Shown piece by piece: positions 27,942 to 62,458 of a stretch of DNA of 64,000 nt. The stretch is taken from positions 1,304,466 through 1,368,465 of the forward strand of contig BPGV01000001.1 in the NCBI GenBank assembly GCA_026003215.1, read 5' to 3'. The notes under the pieces are model-generated. The model was not told where the DNA came from and did not search any database. It was given only the letters and a program-made list of their open reading frames with translations. The position numbers and the translations under genes were made by a program. Within the stretch, counting starts at the first letter, position 1, and each line of letters begins with the position of its first letter. The stretch comes from Bacteroidia bacterium (GTDB lineage Bacteria; Bacteroidota; Bacteroidia; SpSt-205).

Positions 27942-30900
27942 TTACCACACGCGTATGCCCCACATAGTCACGTCATCCAGCTGTTCTCGGTCTTTGCCGA
28001 AATCCTTCCATTCTTTCCACCGCATATTGAAAAGAGCCCGGCGACGAGACATAGAGGGTTCATGGATTGTCTCTAAGATGAACTCTTTGAGCTTTTTCGT
28101 ACCAAAGCGCTTTTCTTCAGGACCGCCCAGTTGGTCTACCACCCCGTCGGTAAAAAGAAAGAACGTATCGCCGGCCTCCAGAAAAACCTCATGTTCCGTG
28201 AAGAAGCGCTCTTCTTCCAGTTGCTCCCCGCCAATAGCTTTTTTGTCGGGCTTGATTTCCTTGAGCTCTACCCCTCGCGTGTAGTACAAAGGCAAGTTGG
28301 CCCCGGCATACAAGAGGCGATAATTTTGGGGAAAGTAGCGCACTAAGGCAATATCCATGCCATCGCGCGAGAGGGTCTCTTCACCTTCTATGTCCTGACG
28401 AAGCACTTGGCGCACACCGATGTGTAGGTCATGGAGGATTTGCGCAGGGGAGTAGATTCGGTCTTTATTGATGATTTGGTCCAGGAGAATACTCCCGATG
28501 AGAGTCATAAAGGCGCCGGGCACGCCATGCCCGGTACCATCGGCTACTACGATGAAATAACTATCTTCGGTAGGACTAAACCAATAAAAATCACCACCTA
28601 CACCATTCCTGTGCTGAGGCCGCCAAATAATAAAGTAGTTATCTTTTCCAAAGTATTTATCCAGCAAAGCATCCGAAGGAAGGATGTTTTTCTGCATGCG
28701 TTTCGCGTAGCGGATGCTTTCCTGGATATTTTGCATGGCCTCTTCCAGCTCGCGTTTTTGGAGTTCGAGCTGTTCGTAGGCTTCTTGGAGGCGGCGGGCG
28801 TAAGCTTGTTGGGCTTCTTCGATCACCGAAGCCGCCGAAGCCGCCAGGGCCCGGAGAAAGTTCACTTCATCCAGCTGCCACTGGCGCTGCGTGTATCTAT
28901 GTTCTACGCTGATAAGACCGACGGTTTTAGCGCCCACGCGTATAACGCCATCAAGCACGCTGGCCACATTGTTTGGCTTAAAGAGCGGCAAAGCCAGCTC
29001 TCGCGTGCGCAGGTCAGATAACGCATCTACCACGGCTATCACCTGATCCCGCTCTAAACTTTGAAAGTACAACGGATACAAAGACCGATTAGTCACAGTA
29101 CCTACAGTATGGGAATGGGGTTCTTTTTCAGCGACAGCTACACACCGGGCAAGGTCAGGCTCTTCGTATAACCATATACTTACACGATACGCTTTGAAAG
29201 TTTCCAAGGCTATCTCCGCGATTACTTGAAAAGCCTTTTCAATATCCCCTTCACGCAGGGCCGGATGGGCCGCCAAGACAGAAAGCGCGTTCTGCTGCTC
29301 TTTGAGGCGGAACTCCTGCTCTTTTTGCTCGGTTATGTCAAATAGGATATTGATGGTTTTGAGGATAGAGGAGCGTTTATCGGGACGATTGTGATCTATC
29401 AGCGGAGTACTCGACATGATGGCCCAATACCGCTGTCCTAAGTTACCTTTAAGCTCTACTTCGGCTTTCCAAAACTGGCCCGCTTGCATGCTGCGCCAGT
29501 GCCCTTGAAGGACAGCCATAGGTTGCCTTTCAGAAAAAAGCACCCCATAATGGGGCCCTTGGAGTTCGGACAGCTCATAACCGAGGGCCTCCGCCAAACC
29601 TTGGGAAAGGTAGGTGAGGTGCCCTTCGCCATCTGTCTCAAAGAGCCAAGCGGCATTATTCAATGCCTCTAACTGCGCCGAAAGCTGCAGCTGGGAAACC
29701 CTGTAGTTTTCGTTACTACGACGGAGCTCCTCGGTATTTTCCCGCAGAAGCTGCTCCTGCTCCCGCGCTAAAAGCAGCGCATTTTGAATCTCGGATTCTT
29801 GCTGCTTTTGGAGTGTGATATCAAATCCTACCAAAATATATTTGTATATTTGACCATCTACTTGTCTTACCGGCGTAATAGTTTGCTGAAACCAGACCTC
29901 CTCGCCGTATTTATTTGTATAGGAGACAACTTCTTGCCAGGCTTCTCCTTTACGGAGGTGGGAAAAAAGCTTCTCTACGAGGGGCTGCTCTTCGGGGCGG
30001 CGCAGCTGGCTGTAAGGTGCTCCCAGTACCTCTTCGGCGGTGTAGCCAAAAAGTCGGAGGAAGGCTTCATTGACGTAAATCAGGCGGCCTTCGGGGTTCA
30101 TTTCGGCCACCAGGGCGGCCGCGTTGAGGGCCGTAATCTGGCCGCGCAACTCCGCCTGGGTGCGGCGCATTTCTTCGGCTGATGCTTCCAGCTCTTCTAT
30201 GTTTTGCCGAAGCTCCTCTTCCAACGCTTGAGCTTGTTCTAAATAGGAAAGGAGTTCTTCTTCCACCAGCTTGCGGTGTCCTTGTTGGAGCAGAAGCGAA
30301 GCCACTCGGGCCAGGAGCGCAGGATACTCTAAATCCTTTGGCGGTGCCTCCGTAAGTCTTTCTACAAAAAACACCCCGGCTATTTCTTCATCCAGATACA
30401 CCGGGAAAAGCCATAACTGTTTGACTCTCTTCTCCTCCAGGTAGGCCACTAAGCCCGGCGCAGTGGGTTGATAAGGACCCGGCGCAGGCGGTTCTACAAG
30501 ATGGGCACGTACCCACTGGGTAGCCTCTGGGGGCAGATCTACGCTATTGGAATGGGTCAAAAGGGTAGGATCATAAGCCTCCAGACAGTGTAGTTTCTCT
30601 TCTTCCTGGCCAAAAACCCAGAAACTATACCGCGCATCCGGGTCCAGGGTAGCTGCTACTTCACAGATCGCAGATAGTCCCTCTAATACTTCTCCTTTTT
30701 GGAGGGCCGGCATTTTGAGGAGCGTCTGGAGGCTCTGCCTTTGCCGCAAAAGCCGCTCTACCTCTTGGTTATATTCTGCCTGGAGGACGGCATACTGCTG
30801 ACGCAGCCGCTCATACTCCGCTTCTACTTCCTGCAAGCGGAACTGGGCCTTATGCAGCGCCTCTTCCAGGGCTTTGAGTTTCCGAGTGGCTTGTGCTATC

Positions 30901-32138
30901 TCTACGACGGACAGGAGAGCCTTTTGTTCTTTGCCCCGCCGATACGGTAAAAAGAAGTACAAGTACTCCGCATCTCCTGCCTCTATTTGACCTTGGCGAG
31001 GCATCCCTTGCCGAAAGGCTTCCTCTAAATCAGCCGAAATATCGAAAAGCTTTTTCCATGAGCTGGCCTCAGACAGCCGAAGGAACAGGTCATTTTGAGA
31101 GACAAGTTGTCCCTCCGGAGACACTTCCGCGAGAGGTACAAGGTTTTGAAAAGCCCCTATTTCCAGGCGGAGGGTTTCTATTTGCTCGGAGAGACGCTTT
31201 TCCGTAGCTTGGAGTTCGGTCAAAAGGGCCTGCTTTTCTTCCTCGGCCTGCTTAAGGGCTTGCTCGGCAGCTTCCTGGGCTTGGGCTATTTGCTGGAGGG
31301 GGGAGAGTGCGGGGCCCAAAAGAGGCTTAAGCTCATTCCACGTAATGGCATTCCGCTTTTCGGCCAAAGCCTCCACTACCGCTAAGAGAGAATGCCACCG
31401 CTGCAAAAGATGGTTATAACTCTGCACTAAGGGCGCCCACGCTGCCTCAGGAACTGGCAGTTTCTCTCCTCGGGCTGAGAGCGCTACGATCTCTCTGAAA
31501 AGTTTTTCTTCCTTTCGTCCTATGAACAGTACGACCCCCACCCCGAGTATTAATAAAAGGCCTACCCCGACTAAGGCCCCTATCTGGACTTGCCGAAGCC
31601 CCCTTGCCTGCTCTTGAGTTTCTTGCTGGACCTTCTCCTCCAAGAGGTTTTGAAACCGTTTAATTTCGGTTTCTATGCCATTTAGCAAGGCAGGCTCCTC
31701 TGCATAATATTGCTCTAACACCAGTTGCCATTCTTCTTTTTGCTTAGCTGTCTCTAAGGCGCGACGCCAGCCCGTGTGCCGCTTTTCCAAAAGGAGGATA
31801 CGCTCTGCAAGCTCCCGCAAAGCCGGCGCAAATGACGGGTCAAAGAGGTTTCTTTCTATAGCTTTTAAGGCTTCGCGTAAGCTACTCTGGCGAAGCAGGG
31901 TAGGGGGCAAGGAGCGCCCCGTCACTTGCTCTAAAAAAATAGAACGCAGGCGCAGCTCTTGTATCCATACAGCCCGTTCTATATCCAAAAGCGCTTGCTG
32001 AAGCGCGACCCACCGCTGCTGCCTTTGTTCACGCGCTCGGTGCAGCTGCCATAGCCCTACCCCTCCTGCAATGCCCAAAACCCCCACGACTAAAAGAAAA
32101 AATACGCTCCACTGGCGCACACGCTGGCCCGGTAACAT
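27942..32138 (-). CDS. Membrane sensor with GAF, PAS and SpoIIE-type phosphatase domains
   Basis: A 1,398-residue signalling protein. Two membrane helices (~12-30 and ~183-205) flank a helical extracytoplasmic region. Then come long coiled coils (~230-345 and ~430-500), a GAF-like domain (~505-655), two PAS domains (~690-790: LIYVNEAFLRLFGYTAEEVLGA; ~840-950: LTYLSQGLAEALGYELSELQG), a second GAF (~985-1115), a coiled coil, and a C-terminal PP2C/SpoIIE phosphatase (~1160-1395) with GVGGDFYWF, VADGTGHGVPGAFM, GMDIALV, FTDGVVDQ and DDVTMWGI. It probably dephosphorylates an anti-sigma-antagonist type partner, but none is adjacent. The start ATG is five bases after a TACCTTAG box. ruvC follows by 2 bp. 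Confidence 0.92.
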   Translation of the reverse strand: MLPGQRVRQWSVFFLLVVGVLGIAGGVGLWQLHRAREQRQQRWVALQQALLDIERAVWIQELRLRSIFLEQVTGRSLPPTLLRQSSLREALKAIERNLFDPSFAPALRELAERILLLEKRHTGWRRALETAKQKEEWQLVLEQYYAEEPALLNGIETEIKRFQNLLEEKVQQETQEQARGLRQVQIGALVGVGLLLILGVGVVLFIGRKEEKLFREIVALSARGEKLPVPEAAWAPLVQSYNHLLQRWHSLLAVVEALAEKRNAITWNELKPLLGPALSPLQQIAQAQEAAEQALKQAEEEKQALLTELQATEKRLSEQIETLRLEIGAFQNLVPLAEVSPEGQLVSQNDLFLRLSEASSWKKLFDISADLEEAFRQGMPRQGQIEAGDAEYLYFFLPYRRGKEQKALLSVVEIAQATRKLKALEEALHKAQFRLQEVEAEYERLRQQYAVLQAEYNQEVERLLRQRQSLQTLLKMPALQKGEVLEGLSAICEVAATLDPDARYSFWVFGQEEEKLHCLEAYDPTLLTHSNSVDLPPEATQWVRAHLVEPPAPGPYQPTAPGLVAYLEEKRVKQLWLFPVYLDEEIAGVFFVERLTEAPPKDLEYPALLARVASLLLQQGHRKLVEEELLSYLEQAQALEEELRQNIEELEASAEEMRRTQAELRGQITALNAAALVAEMNPEGRLIYVNEAFLRLFGYTAEEVLGAPYSQLRRPEEQPLVEKLFSHLRKGEAWQEVVSYTNKYGEEVWFQQTITPVRQVDGQIYKYILVGFDITLQKQQESEIQNALLLAREQEQLLRENTEELRRSNENYRVSQLQLSAQLEALNNAAWLFETDGEGHLTYLSQGLAEALGYELSELQGPHYGVLFSERQPMAVLQGHWRSMQAGQFWKAEVELKGNLGQRYWAIMSSTPLIDHNRPDKRSSILKTINILFDITEQKEQEFRLKEQQNALSVLAAHPALREGDIEKAFQVIAEIALETFKAYRVSIWLYEEPDLARCVAVAEKEPHSHTVGTVTNRSLYPLYFQSLERDQVIAVVDALSDLRTRELALPLFKPNNVASVLDGVIRVGAKTVGLISVEHRYTQRQWQLDEVNFLRALAASAASVIEEAQQAYARRLQEAYEQLELQKRELEEAMQNIQESIRYAKRMQKNILPSDALLDKYFGKDNYFIIWRPQHRNGVGGDFYWFSPTEDSYFIVVADGTGHGVPGAFMTLIGSILLDQIINKDRIYSPAQILHDLHIGVRQVLRQDIEGEETLSRDGMDIALVRYFPQNYRLLYAGANLPLYYTRGVELKEIKPDKKAIGGEQLEEERFFTEHEVFLEAGDTFFLFTDGVVDQLGGPEEKRFGTKKLKEFILETIHEPSMSRRRALFNMRWKEWKDFGKDREQLDDVTMWGIRVW

Positions 32139-32143
32139 CTCCA

Positions 32144-32151
32144 CTAAGGTA
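32144..32151 (-). promoter_or_regulatory. -7 box TACCTTAG for the sensor-ruvC unit
   Basis: One mismatch to TAnnTTTG, five bases before the ATG at 32138. An in-frame GTG at 32144 overlaps it and is rejected as start. Confidence 0.5.
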
Positions 32152-32175: not shown

Positions 32176-35100
32176 TCAGAGCCCCTGCTTAAACCCTACC
32201 AGAAACCGCGCCGCAGAAACCCGCCCCTCTTCTATGGGCCAATACACCTCCACGCCGATAGGTAATCGCATCACTTGAAACCGTAGTCCCGTCCCGATGC
32301 TCATAAGAAAAGGACTCTTGAGCGTCTGCACACTGATGATAAGGGGCGGACGATAAATGTATTCAGCATCTATGGGATTTTTTTGGGAAAAGGGATTTCC
32401 TGTAGTCCACGTTGTAGCCACATAATAGCCTATCTGCCATTCAAAAGTGTAAGTATTTTTGACAGGAAGGGAGGGTTCTCGTCGCCAAGCCAAAATTGGG
32501 AAGCGCGCCACCACAGAAGCCGATAAAAGGTTACGTCCCCGGCGAGCTTGATACGGAAAGCCCGGCAAGTAGTGGTATTCGCTCATGTAGTAAGCCCCTA
32601 TGGGCCCCAGGGTCGGTACCTGACTACGGTTTTGGAAGTCGTAGTTAATCCAATCTGGAACGCCCCCGAGGAAGAAATAGCGCCCTGGCGTGCCGCCCAA
32701 GGCCGCCGACCCCGCAGCTTCAACCACAAAGGCGCGGGCCACGGGTTGAAAGCGCCTAATATGCAGCGCTATCAAGGGGAAAGTCCATCCGCCTTCCCCT
32801 TGGTAGGCTTCTCCGCGCAGGGTACCTTGCCATCCCTGCCAAGGAAAAGTCTCGCGGTAAGCGATTCGCTCATATTGTAGCTGCGCGCGCCCGCCCCACC
32901 ACCGGGCATGCCCCGAGAGGTCTTGGGCATCGGTAGTTTGGAGGTCGTAGCGAGTAGCATCTATCCCCAACAAAGCCCCCTCTACAGCTATGCCTGGCCG
33001 TATAACATACCGCAGCCCCAACTCGCCTTGCCAAGTAGTATTACGTAGGGTACGCCCATATCGGGTAGCAGGGAAGTAATGGCTTTGCTTCCGTAGCTGG
33101 GTAAATGGCTGAAATGCACTGCGATACCGAGTGTAGCTTAGCGCAAATTCTGAACTTCGCAAGTCAATATACGGCGTCCATGCAAAAGACCACGCATGGT
33201 CGCCGTGGGGATCGCGCGCCGAGGCCGAAACCTGCCATCCTAAGCGCATGAGCGGATGCAATACAGGTCCCATACGCACATCCCATAAAAGCCAGTGATA
33301 CGGAACAGCGCCCTGGGGCTTGCTCTCCGGGAGAAAGTAAGATTTTTGCGTAGGCTCCACCGCCTTTTGGCGGCGGCGGCGCACGGGCCGACTGACATCC
33401 TCGTCAAAGAGATAGAAGGCAGAGGGTTTCTGAGAGAGCGTATCTCCCCGTAGTGTATCCGTACGAGGAAGGGGCTTTTCACTGTGTCCTTTTGCGGCCG
33501 CAAGGTACATAGCGCGCCGTTGCAGCCGAAACTGAATAATCTCTGCTGCCAGCAGCGAAGGAAAGGCAGCCCCCTTTTGCCATAGCTGGGATAAAGGCAC
33601 CGCTCCTATCCGAAGCCTGCCCCCTCGGTACCGAAGGAAGTAAGCCTTTTCCGTAGCCTGGCCTATCCACCGGGCAAGGCCGACTGTACGCCATGCAGAA
33701 GCCGCCGAACTATCCCGCCACAGAAGCCAAGCACACCCTTGCCCCGTCACATCTGTTAGGGTAGCCATAAGCGTATCCCCGACCACCCATCCGCCTTTTA
33801 CTTCGTAATACGGAGGAAACGGCAACGGCTCCCAGGAACCTGCATGATAGCGCACCGGCCGCGCAGGCTCCCACAGCACAGATAGGCTGGCTGGTCCGAC
33901 CGTATCGGGTTGCCACGCAGCCCAGTAGTCTCCTTGCGCTTCTGCGGGGGCATAGAAGTCTCCTTGAAGCTGCCCCAGTTTCCTAAGGGCGCCGGACGGC
34001 AAAGTGAGGGTATATACGGCTACCTCTCCCCTATCATCCATGCCCGCAATCAGAAGCGTACCTCCCTGAGTCCAGCGCAAGCTCTCTACCGCGCGTAAAG
34101 AGATGGGCAAGCGCTGATACTGCTTGTCTCCAACGGCCCAGTGCCATAGCACAGGCCCTTCCATCTCATAGCTCAGCCACGCCAGCCGCCCTTCTGAAGA
34201 GAACGCCATGGGTAGGTTCAGCTCGTAATATCCCCCCGGCCACGGCCAGCTGCCCCCTAAGGAATACTCTTCTTCTTCAAGTCGGAGATAATACCGTACC
34301 TGCCCTTGTTGCAAGACAGCATACGCCACCTTCTGCCCATCAGGAGACACCGCAGCTGATAGCACAGCTTTGCGGAATATCTCTTCACTCTCAGGTGACA
34401 AAGTAGGTTTTTCCTGCAGAATATCCAGAAAGCTGCGCCACTTTTCGGCAAGTTCTTCTTCAGAAATGTTGAGGGTAAAAGCGAGGGCCTCGGGAATATT
34501 TCGGGTAAGGCGGGCCATGTACAAGAGGTCTATGAGTTTACGTTGCCCGTAGGTGCGGTAGATATAAAACCACAGCGACTTATAGAGGCTTTTATAAAAA
34601 GGGGAGGGCCGAGCGGTGCGGTCAGCCAAGAGGATCAAGGCGTTCTCAGGCATGAGTTGCAGGCGGGCATAATCTTCGCCTGTCCACCCTTCTCCCCAAA
34701 AAAACGCAAAGCCCCACAAAAACCAGTCGGGCATATATAAGAGCGCCCGATTTTGGAGGCGAACCCCCTCAGAGAAATACAGGTGCTCTAAGATAGCGCC
34801 GATAACCTGACTGCGCACGATAGCGGCGGTAGTGGCTCGGGTTCCCCCCGGAAATACTTCTATAAGCGGTGGAGGAGCTACGAGGGCTCCTCGGGGGTTC
34901 CAAGGAGGCTGCTGCCCCCACGCGACCGGCGAAGGGTGAAGCCGTACAATGAGCGGCCGTTCCAAGGAAAACTCTAAAAGCCCCGTTAGCTCCCGGTATG
35001 CATCTGCCGCCCATGTCCCCACTTGCCGAGCTAATCCCTCTTGGCCTCGCACATACCATACGCCCACCGGCCCTACCTCCAAGGCCTCCCACCCCTTCGG

Positions 35101-35178
35101 CGCTCGCTTATACGCCACAAAGGGATTCTCCTGGGCCCACACCCAAGCAAAGCCTATTATGCCCCAGAGACGCCACAC
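32176..35178 (-). CDS. Outer-membrane protein with peptidase-like, TolB-like propeller and beta-barrel regions
   Basis: A 1,000-residue exported protein. The signal peptide is MWRLWGIIGFAWVWAQ. Residues ~20-260 resemble the gluzincin-like domain found in Bacteroidota TolB-type proteins (MPDWFLWGFAFFWGEGW, YIYRTYGQRKLIDLLYMARLTRNIPEAL), without an HExxH zinc site, so it is probably inactive. Residues ~270-600 look like a beta-propeller (VLSAAVSPDGQKVAYAVLQQG, LRWTQGGTLLIAGMDDRGEVAVYTL). The last ~350 residues form a BamA-like or surface-antigen barrel ending in an aromatic-rich segment and FLVGFKQGL. Translation starts at GTG 35178, four bases after a TTTATTTG box. Function unknown. A transport or assembly role is only inferred. 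Confidence 0.78.
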   Translation of the reverse strand: MWRLWGIIGFAWVWAQENPFVAYKRAPKGWEALEVGPVGVWYVRGQEGLARQVGTWAADAYRELTGLLEFSLERPLIVRLHPSPVAWGQQPPWNPRGALVAPPPLIEVFPGGTRATTAAIVRSQVIGAILEHLYFSEGVRLQNRALLYMPDWFLWGFAFFWGEGWTGEDYARLQLMPENALILLADRTARPSPFYKSLYKSLWFYIYRTYGQRKLIDLLYMARLTRNIPEALAFTLNISEEELAEKWRSFLDILQEKPTLSPESEEIFRKAVLSAAVSPDGQKVAYAVLQQGQVRYYLRLEEEEYSLGGSWPWPGGYYELNLPMAFSSEGRLAWLSYEMEGPVLWHWAVGDKQYQRLPISLRAVESLRWTQGGTLLIAGMDDRGEVAVYTLTLPSGALRKLGQLQGDFYAPAEAQGDYWAAWQPDTVGPASLSVLWEPARPVRYHAGSWEPLPFPPYYEVKGGWVVGDTLMATLTDVTGQGCAWLLWRDSSAASAWRTVGLARWIGQATEKAYFLRYRGGRLRIGAVPLSQLWQKGAAFPSLLAAEIIQFRLQRRAMYLAAAKGHSEKPLPRTDTLRGDTLSQKPSAFYLFDEDVSRPVRRRRQKAVEPTQKSYFLPESKPQGAVPYHWLLWDVRMGPVLHPLMRLGWQVSASARDPHGDHAWSFAWTPYIDLRSSEFALSYTRYRSAFQPFTQLRKQSHYFPATRYGRTLRNTTWQGELGLRYVIRPGIAVEGALLGIDATRYDLQTTDAQDLSGHARWWGGRAQLQYERIAYRETFPWQGWQGTLRGEAYQGEGGWTFPLIALHIRRFQPVARAFVVEAAGSAALGGTPGRYFFLGGVPDWINYDFQNRSQVPTLGPIGAYYMSEYHYLPGFPYQARRGRNLLSASVVARFPILAWRREPSLPVKNTYTFEWQIGYYVATTWTTGNPFSQKNPIDAEYIYRPPLIISVQTLKSPFLMSIGTGLRFQVMRLPIGVEVYWPIEEGRVSAARFLVGFKQGL

Positions 35179-35182
35179 CTCC

Positions 35183-35190
35183 CAAATAAA
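35183..35190 (-). promoter_or_regulatory. -7-like box TTTATTTG for the propeller/barrel gene
   Basis: One mismatch to TAnnTTTG, four bases (GGAG) before the GTG at 35178. It is separated by a single base from the divergent box at 35192-35199. Confidence 0.5.
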
Positions 35191-35191
35191 C

Positions 35192-35199
35192 TAAATTTG
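35192..35199 (+). promoter_or_regulatory. -7 box TAAATTTG for the TPR gene
   Basis: An exact consensus, four bases (CGCC) before the ATG at 35204, back to back with the box for the opposite gene. Confidence 0.6.
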
Positions 35200-35203
35200 C
35201 GCC

Positions 35204-35923
35204 ATGCGTTACCTATATGGGATAGCTCTCATAGCTACTTCTCTCTTGGCCCAGAAAAAGAAAGACCCAGCACCCGCTCCAGCTTCTGCCCCTTCCCCAG
35301 CCCAAAAAGTCTATGCCCAAGCCGTGGCTTATGGAGACCTCCTTACGCAGATATACGCGCTACACTGGCGCTTAGCCACAGAAGGGCCTTCTTTCGGCCT
35401 AAGGGATACCCTCGCTCAAACCTACTTCCAGGCTGGCCTTTATCGCCAAGCCATAGCCGTAGCCGACGAACTCCTCAAAGAACAGCCCCGCAACGCCGAC
35501 CTGGCCGAACTCAAAGCCCTTGCCTACTTCTACCTCCAAGATACCAAAAATGCCCTGGAAGCCTACGAAAAGCTCTACGAGATTACCCAATCGCCGCTAC
35601 ACCTGTACCAAGTAATCACCCTGCAGTTCAACCTCCAACGATACGGTGAGTGCCAAGCCAATATAGACAAACTCTTAGCCAATCCGGAGGCCGACCGCCT
35701 CACCGTGCGTATTTCCACACCTGACGGTCAGACCCAGGAAGTACCCCTCCGAGCCGCAGCCTGGAATGTACGCGGCGTACTCTATCGCCTCCAAAAAGAA
35801 CCCGAAAAAGCCCGCACCAGCTTTGAAGAAGCCCTCAAAATCGCGCCTACCTTCCTCCTCGCCAAGGGAAACCTGGAGGACCTCAATAAAGAAGTCCAGC
35901 CTTCTACCCCCTCTAAAAAGTAA
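35204..35923 (+). CDS. Exported TPR-repeat protein
   Basis: A 239-residue protein with signal peptide MRYLYGIALIATSLLA, a basic and Pro/Ala-rich linker (QKKKDPAPAPASAPSPA), then TPR-type helices (~65-235): TLAQTYFQAGLYRQAIAVADELLKEQP, AELKALAYFYLQDTKNALEAYEKLYE and AWNVRGVLYRLQKEPEKARTSFEEALKIAP. TPRs indicate a protein-binding scaffold, probably periplasmic. The partner is unknown. It starts 25 bp from the divergent propeller/barrel gene, which suggests but does not show a shared function. Confidence 0.85.
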   Translation: MRYLYGIALIATSLLAQKKKDPAPAPASAPSPAQKVYAQAVAYGDLLTQIYALHWRLATEGPSFGLRDTLAQTYFQAGLYRQAIAVADELLKEQPRNADLAELKALAYFYLQDTKNALEAYEKLYEITQSPLHLYQVITLQFNLQRYGECQANIDKLLANPEADRLTVRISTPDGQTQEVPLRAAAWNVRGVLYRLQKEPEKARTSFEEALKIAPTFLLAKGNLEDLNKEVQPSTPSKK

Positions 35924-36005
35924 GATATCCCCCCTATCTACTAATCCCCATCCCGATAGCCAGCCAGAAGGGCAGCCTCCCATTATTTATATTCAGTATA
36001 GATTG

Positions 36006-36861: not shown

Positions 36862-36877
36862 AAAATAGCGCTTTTTG

Positions 36878-36885
36878 TATCTTTG
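36878..36885 (+). promoter_or_regulatory. -7 box TATCTTTG for the GWxTD gene
   Basis: An exact consensus, four bases before the ATG at 36890, right after the FTR1 stop. Confidence 0.62.
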
Positions 36886-36889
36886 GTGG

Positions 36890-38341
36890 ATGCCCTGGCT
36901 AAGGTATATCCCAGGTCTCTCCCTCCTCTGGGCACAGGTAGCCTTCTACATAGAACCTGTACGCTACTACACTTTGGAAGGCGAACCCTACATAGAACTC
37001 TTCTTAGGCGTAGATGCTACCAGTGTACAGCTTATCTCCACCAACGGTGGGTATGGGGGTACCGTAGATTTCGCTCTCATTCTCAAAAATGATAAAGACG
37101 AAGTTATCTACGCCGATAAGTTTCGCTTTATCCTGCCTACCCTACCGGATACTCAGCTCACCACACGCCAAAAACTTTATACGGATATTCGTCGCTTACG
37201 CTTACCGTTGGGGCTCTATACCTTAGAAGTAGAAGCCACCGACCCGAACCAAAAGCCACGTCCCCAACAAGTCAAGGCTATTACGCAGTTTGAGGTGCTG
37301 CCACCCGTACGGGGTTTTGCATATAGCGACCTCTTGTATGCCCGTCGGATTAGCCCCAGCACCGAAGAAAAAGCCTATGTCCGCCACGGCCTGACCATAG
37401 AGCCGTGGATCTCTAACGGCCTAATTGTAGATCCGGACACGCTTTTTGTCTATGGCGAGCTGTATCATGTAGATAGCTTGACCAATGACCCGTATTTTCT
37501 GCGGCTGCGGGTCTTGAATGCCCAGACCGCTCAAGAAGTGCCTGAGCTGCACTTCACCCGACGGCCCCGCCGCCCCGCTCCCTTTGAAGCTTTTTATTTT
37601 ACCCTACCCCTCACTAAGCTCCCCTCCGGCATCTACCTCACCCAACTGGAACTCTGCCGAAATGACGGTGAAGTGCTCATAAGCTGGTATCGCCGATTCG
37701 TCCTCTTTAGTACCAAAGAACCCCTCGTAGAAGGCACCGAAACCGAATACGACGCTAAATACGGCTTCCCCGAAAACCAGCTCAATGAGCTGCTCAGCGC
37801 CATGACCTACTTAGCTACCCCCACCGAAAAAAGCTTTATCCAAGCGCTCTCTACCTTTTCTGAAAAGAAACGCTTTTTCGTAGCCTTCTGGAAAAAAAGA
37901 GAGCAGCAACTCGGCGCTGTACCCTTTAAAGAGTTTCTCCAACGCTTCGAATACGCCAAACAGCACTTCAAATCCTCCATGCGTCCCGGCTGGCGCACAG
38001 ACCGGGGGCGGGTCTTTATTCAGTACGGCCCTCCAAACGACATGCAGTTCTTTTACAACGAACCCGACAAATACCCTTACCAAATCTGGACCTACAACCA
38101 AATTGGTTCCCAAGGCCAAGTTATTTTTGTATTCTACGACCCCGACCTCATTACGAATGAATATCCTCTGCTCCACTCTAATAAGCTGGGCGAGATCCAA
38201 AATCGGAATTGGCGGGCGTTTCTTTTACGCGCACGCGCGGCCTCCACGGGTGAGACAGAAAAATATCAGCGCTTCGGCAGTGGGAGTGCTTTTCTCTTTC
38301 GGGATGACCAGACGATTGGCTTTACGCGGGATGACCGCTAA
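36890..38341 (+). CDS. Exported GWxTD-domain protein
   Basis: A 483-residue protein with a signal peptide (MPWLRYIPGLSLLWAQ) and a GWxTD domain, named for the motif at residues 367-371 (GWRTDRGR) followed by FIQYGPPNDMQFFYN and FVFYDPD. The domain is common in Bacteroidota and related phyla, but its role is not established. The N-terminal two-thirds are beta-rich (VDFALILKNDKDEVIYADKF) and resemble carbohydrate-binding or Ig-like folds only loosely. The start at ATG 36890 gives a signal peptide and lies four bases after the promoter box. cutA follows 17 bp later with its own box. Confidence 0.88.
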   Translation: MPWLRYIPGLSLLWAQVAFYIEPVRYYTLEGEPYIELFLGVDATSVQLISTNGGYGGTVDFALILKNDKDEVIYADKFRFILPTLPDTQLTTRQKLYTDIRRLRLPLGLYTLEVEATDPNQKPRPQQVKAITQFEVLPPVRGFAYSDLLYARRISPSTEEKAYVRHGLTIEPWISNGLIVDPDTLFVYGELYHVDSLTNDPYFLRLRVLNAQTAQEVPELHFTRRPRRPAPFEAFYFTLPLTKLPSGIYLTQLELCRNDGEVLISWYRRFVLFSTKEPLVEGTETEYDAKYGFPENQLNELLSAMTYLATPTEKSFIQALSTFSEKKRFFVAFWKKREQQLGAVPFKEFLQRFEYAKQHFKSSMRPGWRTDRGRVFIQYGPPNDMQFFYNEPDKYPYQIWTYNQIGSQGQVIFVFYDPDLITNEYPLLHSNKLGEIQNRNWRAFLLRARAASTGETEKYQRFGSGSAFLFRDDQTIGFTRDDR

Positions 38342-38358: not shown

Positions 38359-38691
38359 ATGGAGACCCCCGAGTTTGGGCTGGTGTATGTGGTATGTGCC
38401 TCACCCGAGGAAGCGCGCCACCTGGCCCGCCTCGCGTTAGAAAGGCGCCTGGCGGCCTGCGCTAATATCTTTTCTCCGCTCCACTCGCTCTACTGGTGGG
38501 AAGACCAAATAGAAGAAGCCCAAGAAACCCTCCTCCTGCTCAAAGCCCCCTACACCTACTACGAGGAGATTGAAAAACTCATCAAGCAACACCACAGCTA
38601 CAAAGTGCCCGCTATCCTGCGATTGCCTATCACGCAGGGATTACCCGAGTATTTCCGCTGGCTGGCCCAAGAAACGGGATTTGATTACTAA
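38359..38691 (+). CDS. cutA: CutA divalent-cation tolerance protein
   Basis: A 110-residue trimeric ferredoxin-like protein. Family motifs: YVVCASPEEARHLARLALERRLAACANIF, LYWWEDQIEEAQETLLLLKA and the H-S-Y-K-V-P segment followed by AILRLPITQG. The family was named for copper tolerance in E. coli, but its biochemical role is unsettled. It overlaps the next gene by 11 bp and heads a unit containing the DUF2279 protein, serine hydrolase and mutL. Confidence 0.96.
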   Translation: METPEFGLVYVVCASPEEARHLARLALERRLAACANIFSPLHSLYWWEDQIEEAQETLLLLKAPYTYYEEIEKLIKQHHSYKVPAILRLPITQGLPEYFRWLAQETGFDY

Positions 38692-62428: not shown

Positions 62429-62436
62429 CAAAGGTA
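62429..62436 (-). promoter_or_regulatory. -7 box TACCTTTG for the DUF349 gene
   Basis: An exact consensus, nine bases before the ATG at 62419, and 14 bp from the divergent box for the stress protein. Confidence 0.6.
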
Positions 62437-62450
62437 CAATAGAAATCGCA

Positions 62451-62458
62451 TACTTTTG
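62451..62458 (+). promoter_or_regulatory. -7 box TACTTTTG for the universal stress protein
   Basis: An exact consensus, five bases (TCTAT) before the ATG at 62464. Confidence 0.62.

Follow-up and report, generated by a model that had tools for sequence, protein, structure and literature searches.

A probable compact divergent promoter with back-to-back −7 boxes as an instance of start-proximal promoter packing in a Bacteroidia family

Can two genes that diverge from a stretch of DNA barely wide enough for one RNA polymerase both be expressed, or does such an arrangement commit the cell to one of them at a time? The question is raised by a locus in a 64,000-nt stretch of a Bacteroidia genome (the window, meaning the whole of the DNA analysed), where a preliminary description had placed two −7 boxes back to back between a gene for a TPR-repeat protein and a long leftward gene, and had proposed that their transcription is mutually exclusive. 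Direct reading confirmed both boxes at the positions described (Table 1), as well as the start codons, GTG at 35178 on the minus strand and ATG at 35204 on the plus strand, with 25 bases in between. The spacer between the boxes is a single base, C at 35191. On either side the gap from box to start codon is 4 nt, which agrees with the 4-5 nt spacing of leaderless genes, although the left box is off consensus, and the predicted starts of the two divergent transcripts are 26 bp apart. The −33 region of each promoter falls in the coding sequence of the opposite gene, also as described; we found no −33 TTTG on either side, and none near 35171 for the rightward promoter. This does not disqualify the rightward promoter, since in F. 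johnsoniae promoters the −33 motif is far less evident according to one report (PMC6847099), and another published mapping could not identify it. Scans of the 64-kb window for tRNAs and, at gathering score, for Rfam families gave no match.

Table 1 Features of the divergent region and the genes on either side (positions in the window).
Feature	Position	Strand	Basis or remark
Whole divergent region, plus-strand sequence CACCTCCCAAATAAACTAAATTTGCGCCATG	35176-35206		Read directly
Rightward −7 box TAAATTTG of the TPR gene	35192-35199	+	N4 before ATG; match to TAnnTTTG
Leftward −7-like box TTTATTTG (plus strand: CAAATAAA)	35183-35190	−	N4 before GTG of the left gene
17-bp core CAAATAAACTAAATTTG, both boxes and the 1-bp spacer	35183-35199	unstranded	Read directly and by genome search
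TPR-repeat protein gene, 239 aa	35204-35923	+	Predicted leaderless, ATG at predicted +1
Left gene, 1000-aa protein	32176-35178	−	GTG start, predicted leaderless

Judged by eye, both proteins carry signal-like N-termini (signal-peptide-like in the left protein), and the C-terminal part of the left protein is strand-rich. The left gene's GTG has a stop codon in frame 15 nt before it, making this GTG the sole standard upstream start. The left protein had been labelled a propeller/barrel protein; it has no Pfam match at 0.001, and the label is plausible given a faint similarity to a TolB propeller over residues 326-404 and strands in the AlphaFold model where a propeller and a barrel would lie, but the similarity scores 20 bits where the cutoff is 343, and the model (mean pLDDT 38) is too poor for use. 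Beyond the left gene, positions 27942-32144 encode a 1400-aa PAS/GAF/SpoIIE protein; because a protein of like length and look, compared by eye, also comes after the left gene at two other loci (L031 and L032), the two genes may form an operon. On the other side, a GWxTD-domain protein (36875-38341) and CutA1 (38359-38691) are encoded downstream of the TPR gene and a gene for an FTR1-type permease, and the region upstream of the latter (35976-36005) is well conserved with G007, one of the related genomes considered below, matching it at 16 of 20 bases adjoining the box.

We explored how far each box stands above chance. Across the whole 2.27-Mb genome, TANNTTTG-N4-ATG (TAnnTTTG) occurs 223 times (117 + 106), compared with 16 (8 + 8) for the reversed control. 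Within a 464-kb sample consisting of 20 genome stretches and the window, TAnnTTTG before ATG peaks at N4 (46 occurrences, followed by 23 at N5, 13 at N6 and 19 at N7) over a background of ~5 per spacing. Gene calls, defined as ORFs of at least 120 aa taken longest first, give a similar picture, although this rule is crude, leaves start positions ambiguous and determines the counts that follow: 118 of 391 calls have TAnnTTTG 3-8 nt ahead of an in-frame start near the 5′ end (first 240 nt), compared with 1 for the reversed motif (504 kb), and under a shifted-spacing background we counted 113 matches in 110 of the 391 genes (first 150 nt) where ~19 were expected. The reversed motif is a lenient control and the shifted-spacing background a stricter, less flattering one, so we take roughly a quarter of gene calls with a start-proximal box as a fair estimate. 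With the class so far above its control in both the genome-wide and the gene-call counts, we ruled out a chance match, and the rightward box is very likely a genuine Bacteroidota −7 promoter, as judged from sequence. Published −7 boxes span −12 to −5 (PMC9723704) and lie 4 or 5 nt from the start site (PMC6847099); combined with the N4 gap, these positions place the predicted +1 on the start codon, so that N4 genes are predicted to be leaderless and N5-N8 genes nearly so.

The leftward box is a different matter. It departs from TAnnTTTG by one mismatch, T for A at consensus position 2, and equal strength of the two boxes therefore cannot be assumed. In the 464-kb sample, TTnnTTTG precedes any ATG or GTG 11 times at N4, where the background per spacing is 9.4; at called gene starts (N3-8) it occurs 11 times against 5.4 expected, and after genes with a consensus box are excluded, 8 times against 3.4, with four at N4, the focal box being one of these four. 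Enrichment of this variant at starts is weak at best and, on counts alone, would make it a minor class at most. Two other minus-strand sites were considered. As a promoter of the left gene we rejected TAGGTTTG at 35424, 246 nt upstream, which is the only TAnnTTTG of the same orientation within ~520 nt upstream of the gene and has G at both middle positions, where the −7 form given in PMC6847099, TAHHTTTG, excludes it. A weak σ70-consensus site on the minus strand (35185 to 35156, 9/12) was given no weight; it straddles the GTG, and its start would fall inside the left gene. Elsewhere in the own-genome sample, TAnnTTCG (11 vs 0.8) and TAnnTTTC (6 vs 0.8) are enriched at leaderless distance, a clearer excess than that of TTnnTTTG; these are possible sites of an alternative sigma or tolerated variants.

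Having compared the boxes by number, we turned to their conservation in the family to which the organism belongs, f1 of the class Bacteroidia, represented by 12 genomes including its own. Its named public relatives are 'Bacteroidia bacterium' MAGs SKW103, SKYB87 and KatS3mg026, a kind that we presume to come from hot springs. Locus counts refer to 11 assessable genomes, with G008 omitted as its sole match is cut by a contig end, and adjacency of the two genes was assessed within f1. The left gene and the TPR gene are divergent neighbors in all 11, and a strict TAnnTTTG box lies N4-N7 ahead of the TPR gene's ATG in 10 (own genome included in both counts); the exception, G011 from another genus, carries the off-consensus GAATTTTG-N4-ATG. 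The left gene is preceded by TTTATTTG-N4-GTG in four species (G000, G001, G007 and G009), and by TTATTTTG-N4-GTG in G011, so that the N4 distance to GTG recurs in five genomes, one of them from another genus. In four more genomes a T[A/T]nnTTTG box lies at a different distance (N6 in G002, N3 or N6 in G003, N7 in G005 and N13 in G010), and these four group together in the protein trees; only in G005, 1 of 11, is the left-gene box strict. No T[A/T]nnTTTG left box was found in G004 or G006, G004 having a one-mismatch TAATTTTA-N4-GTG. The two boxes are separated by 1 bp in four genomes, 2 bp in G011, 8 in G010, 25 in G002 and G005, and 26 in G003. Thus the arrangement, which the preliminary description suggested checking in relatives, is conserved as a pair of gene neighbors, whereas the abutting geometry (1-2 bp) is restricted to 5 of 11 genomes and absent in 6.

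The 17-mer core is exact in 4 of the 12 f1 genomes and, in a search allowing up to 1 mismatch, occurs at this locus only; in G007 it is present twice, near the ends of two contigs. The four compact-core genomes also share one C on each side of the 17-mer, beyond which the N4 linkers are alike in G000 and G009 but diverge in G001 and G007. Identity to the window's proteins is 56-65% for the left proteins (first 380 residues) and 76-82% for the TPR proteins (aligned stretches). As a control, we scored the ten bases upstream of the box between G000 and either G007 or G009 at promoters with a box in both species, keeping 31 of 33 ortholog pairs and omitting two whose relative lacks the box. Upstream of the TPR box all 10 bases are identical in both focal pairs, while the other 29 promoter pairs score 0-9, a table that pools promoters whose upstream bases lie inside a coding gene, some high scorers among them, with those whose upstream bases do not. 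Conservation, rather than counts, is the main evidence in favor of the left box, and these upstream bases are the best sign that it matters; they fit a left-gene promoter and an upstream element of the right promoter alike. Of the two divergent promoters originally proposed, the right one is therefore well supported and the left one is carried by a box that is off consensus and of a class weakly enriched at best, yet invariant in four species.

The ambiguity of the upstream bases opens the way to a reading in which only the TPR promoter is active, the left-box bases being kept as its AT-rich upstream spacer element near −18 and the left gene being transcribed from elsewhere or weakly. AT-rich motifs near −18 are indeed reported in F. 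johnsoniae promoters (PMC6847099), and a left box that lacks the consensus A and belongs to such a class speaks for this reading. However, the four-species conservation ends one base (the C) past the outer edge of the left box, the N4 distance to GTG persists in another genus, and the sole same-direction TAnnTTTG in the ~520 nt upstream is the excluded form at 35424. On balance we regard a TPR-only promoter as unlikely, though by no means far-fetched.

The symmetry of the core invites another interpretation, that CAAAT-N7-ATTTG serves as the dyad operator of a regulator overlapping one or both promoters. Its arms are CAAAT/ATTTG in G000, G001, G007 and G009, and in G011 both lengthen together to CAAAAT/ATTTTG. 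Yet back-to-back boxes that end in TTTG are symmetric by construction, the dyad was not seen in the other six assessed genomes, and a Pfam scan found no DNA-binding family in either the TPR protein or the left protein. The site is also single: a 19-mer around the core has one match in the own genome with up to 3 mismatches allowed, by which we rejected the 17-mer as a repeated regulon site. An operator at this position thus appears quite improbable.

We then considered whether the packing of the two boxes is peculiar to this locus. Strict divergent pairs, CAAANNTA-N(0-30)-TANNTTTG, number 72 in the own genome versus 2 for the control, and 31-72 versus 0-4 over the 12 f1 genomes. Its off-consensus left box keeps the focal pair out of these 72. 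No spacer length is preferred among them (p = 0.68), 22, 25 and 25 pairs falling at 0-10, 11-20 and 21-30 bp, and three pairs have a 1-bp spacer. At the eight with a spacer of at most 4 bp, a frame of at least 54 aa is opened on both sides in 6 (in one of them only 64 and 58 aa), on one side in 1 and on neither in 1. One of these six, with 2 bp between the boxes, has a gene resembling that for ribosomal protein L34 (rpmH) facing a nucleotide-sugar epimerase-like gene (both named by eye, from the N-terminal sequences), and another strict pair lies in the window itself at 62429-62458, with 14 bp between boxes. Seen from the genes, 46 of 62 divergent neighbors in the sample carry a strict box for at least one partner, and 15 for both. 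Because similar packing and predicted starts at or near the start codon recur genome-wide, the focal site looks like a habit of the genome and not like a special on/off switch.

Starts 26 bp apart should leave no room for two polymerases, and we consider that two probably cannot be bound together at the site, a sound part of the original proposal that has a parallel in E. coli, where steric exclusion of simultaneous binding is stated for bidirectional promoters (PMC12825309). Exclusive binding is nonetheless not exclusive expression. At basal activity, the five E. coli bidirectional promoters tested in that report showed little competition, whereas strong activation of one side could repress the other, from which strength-dependent competition, and no strict switch, would be expected here. 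A switch between the TPR gene and the left gene, whether bistable or mutually exclusive, which the 1-bp spacing and the steric implausibility of simultaneous occupancy might suggest, is therefore most improbable, given that close spacing is common genome-wide, that 6 of 11 f1 genomes lack the abutment on which such a switch would depend, that the two boxes are unequal and that basal competition in E. coli is slight.

To place the habit phylogenetically, we compared 60 genomes. The ratio of target to control for TANNTTTG-N4-ATG ranges from ~8 (G009) to 95 (G007) in the 12 f1 genomes, all strongly enriched. Among the other 48, most lie at ~1-3, with exceptions that include G051 (356 vs 75), G028 and G031 (~4), and G020 (32 vs 3, small counts). 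For divergent pairs, most of the 48 are near or below a ratio of 2, the exceptions being G051 (143 vs 23), G059 (105 vs 43), G012 (59 vs 19), G044 (60 vs 17), G030 (30 vs 5), G055 (35 vs 8), G031 (51 vs 17) and G029 (8 vs 2). The start-proximal box trait is strongest in f1 and not confined to it; G051, of the same class and another family, is a second lineage strong in both measures.

Taken together, the sequence evidence leads us to favor, with a probability of roughly 0.62, a compact divergent promoter at this locus. A consensus primary-sigma −7 box, TAAATTTG, would start the TPR transcript at or beside its ATG, and the off-consensus, probably weaker TTTATTTG would start the left-gene transcript at or beside its GTG, both messages being leaderless. 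A single polymerase would occupy the site at a time, with competition relevant only if one side were highly active and both genes expressed otherwise, and the layout would be one instance of a family-wide habit of setting −7 boxes near start codons and divergent promoters close together.

How does this compare with known systems? In its rightward box, and in the distance from that box to the predicted start site, the locus resembles the Bacteroidota primary-sigma promoter (TAnnTTTG, −33 TTTG), from which the leftward box differs in being off consensus. With the bidirectional promoters that Warman, Grainger and colleagues described in E. coli (PMC12825309), the site shares two opposed starts in a polymerase-sized stretch, and the steric exclusion of simultaneous binding stated for them would likewise apply here. 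Those promoters, however, have one common symmetric −10 element, and the distance between their starts is most often 18, 10 or 23 bp, whereas the focal site has two distinct asymmetric boxes split by C35191 and more widely separated predicted starts. Leaderless genes of Actinobacteria and Deinococcus-Thermus also have a core promoter box at a fixed short distance from the start codon; the box (TAnnTTTG) and the phylum differ here.

In the mapped Bacteroidota species most genes are leadered. Published figures are 5.5% leaderless in F. psychrophilum (PMC9723704) and leaders of more than 10 nt on 87% of predicted transcripts in F. johnsoniae (PMC6847099), and in B. thetaiotaomicron ~3.7% of 5′ UTRs are shorter than 10 nt. 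Of 37 Bacteroidetes/Chlorobi genomes in a 2011 survey (PMC3160421), one had leaderless genes, at 2.4%, in an approach that could identify only genes with a Pribnow-like box, and according to a 2021 paper (PMC9581028) the wider FCB group uses AT-rich non-canonical sites. Our literature search, of partial coverage and thus weak evidence of absence, did not turn up a Bacteroidota family in which boxes sit at starts genome-wide. The start-proximal −7 boxes and packed divergent promoters predicted throughout f1 genomes would thus set the family apart from the Bacteroidota mapped in the literature examined. The 3′ end of the organism's own 16S rRNA retains the anti-SD CCTCC, as reported for the phylum (PMC6847099).

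As a broader and more tentative proposal, to which we give somewhat less than even odds, f1 may have moved its primary-sigma boxes against the start codons, leaving a large share of its genes leaderless and dozens of divergent pairs sharing a polymerase-sized site; two independent, abutting or nearly abutting boxes would then be a second, non-symmetric way of building a bidirectional promoter, with competition arising genome-wide. The prevailing view of Bacteroidota is that their messages have leaders but no SD. With about a quarter of its gene calls carrying a −7 box at a leaderless or near-leaderless distance, f1 would lend itself to testing how the ribosomes of this phylum, which keep the anti-SD, choose their starts, and its divergent pairs, at spacings graded from 1 to 30 bp within one genome, would serve as a series for the onset of promoter competition.
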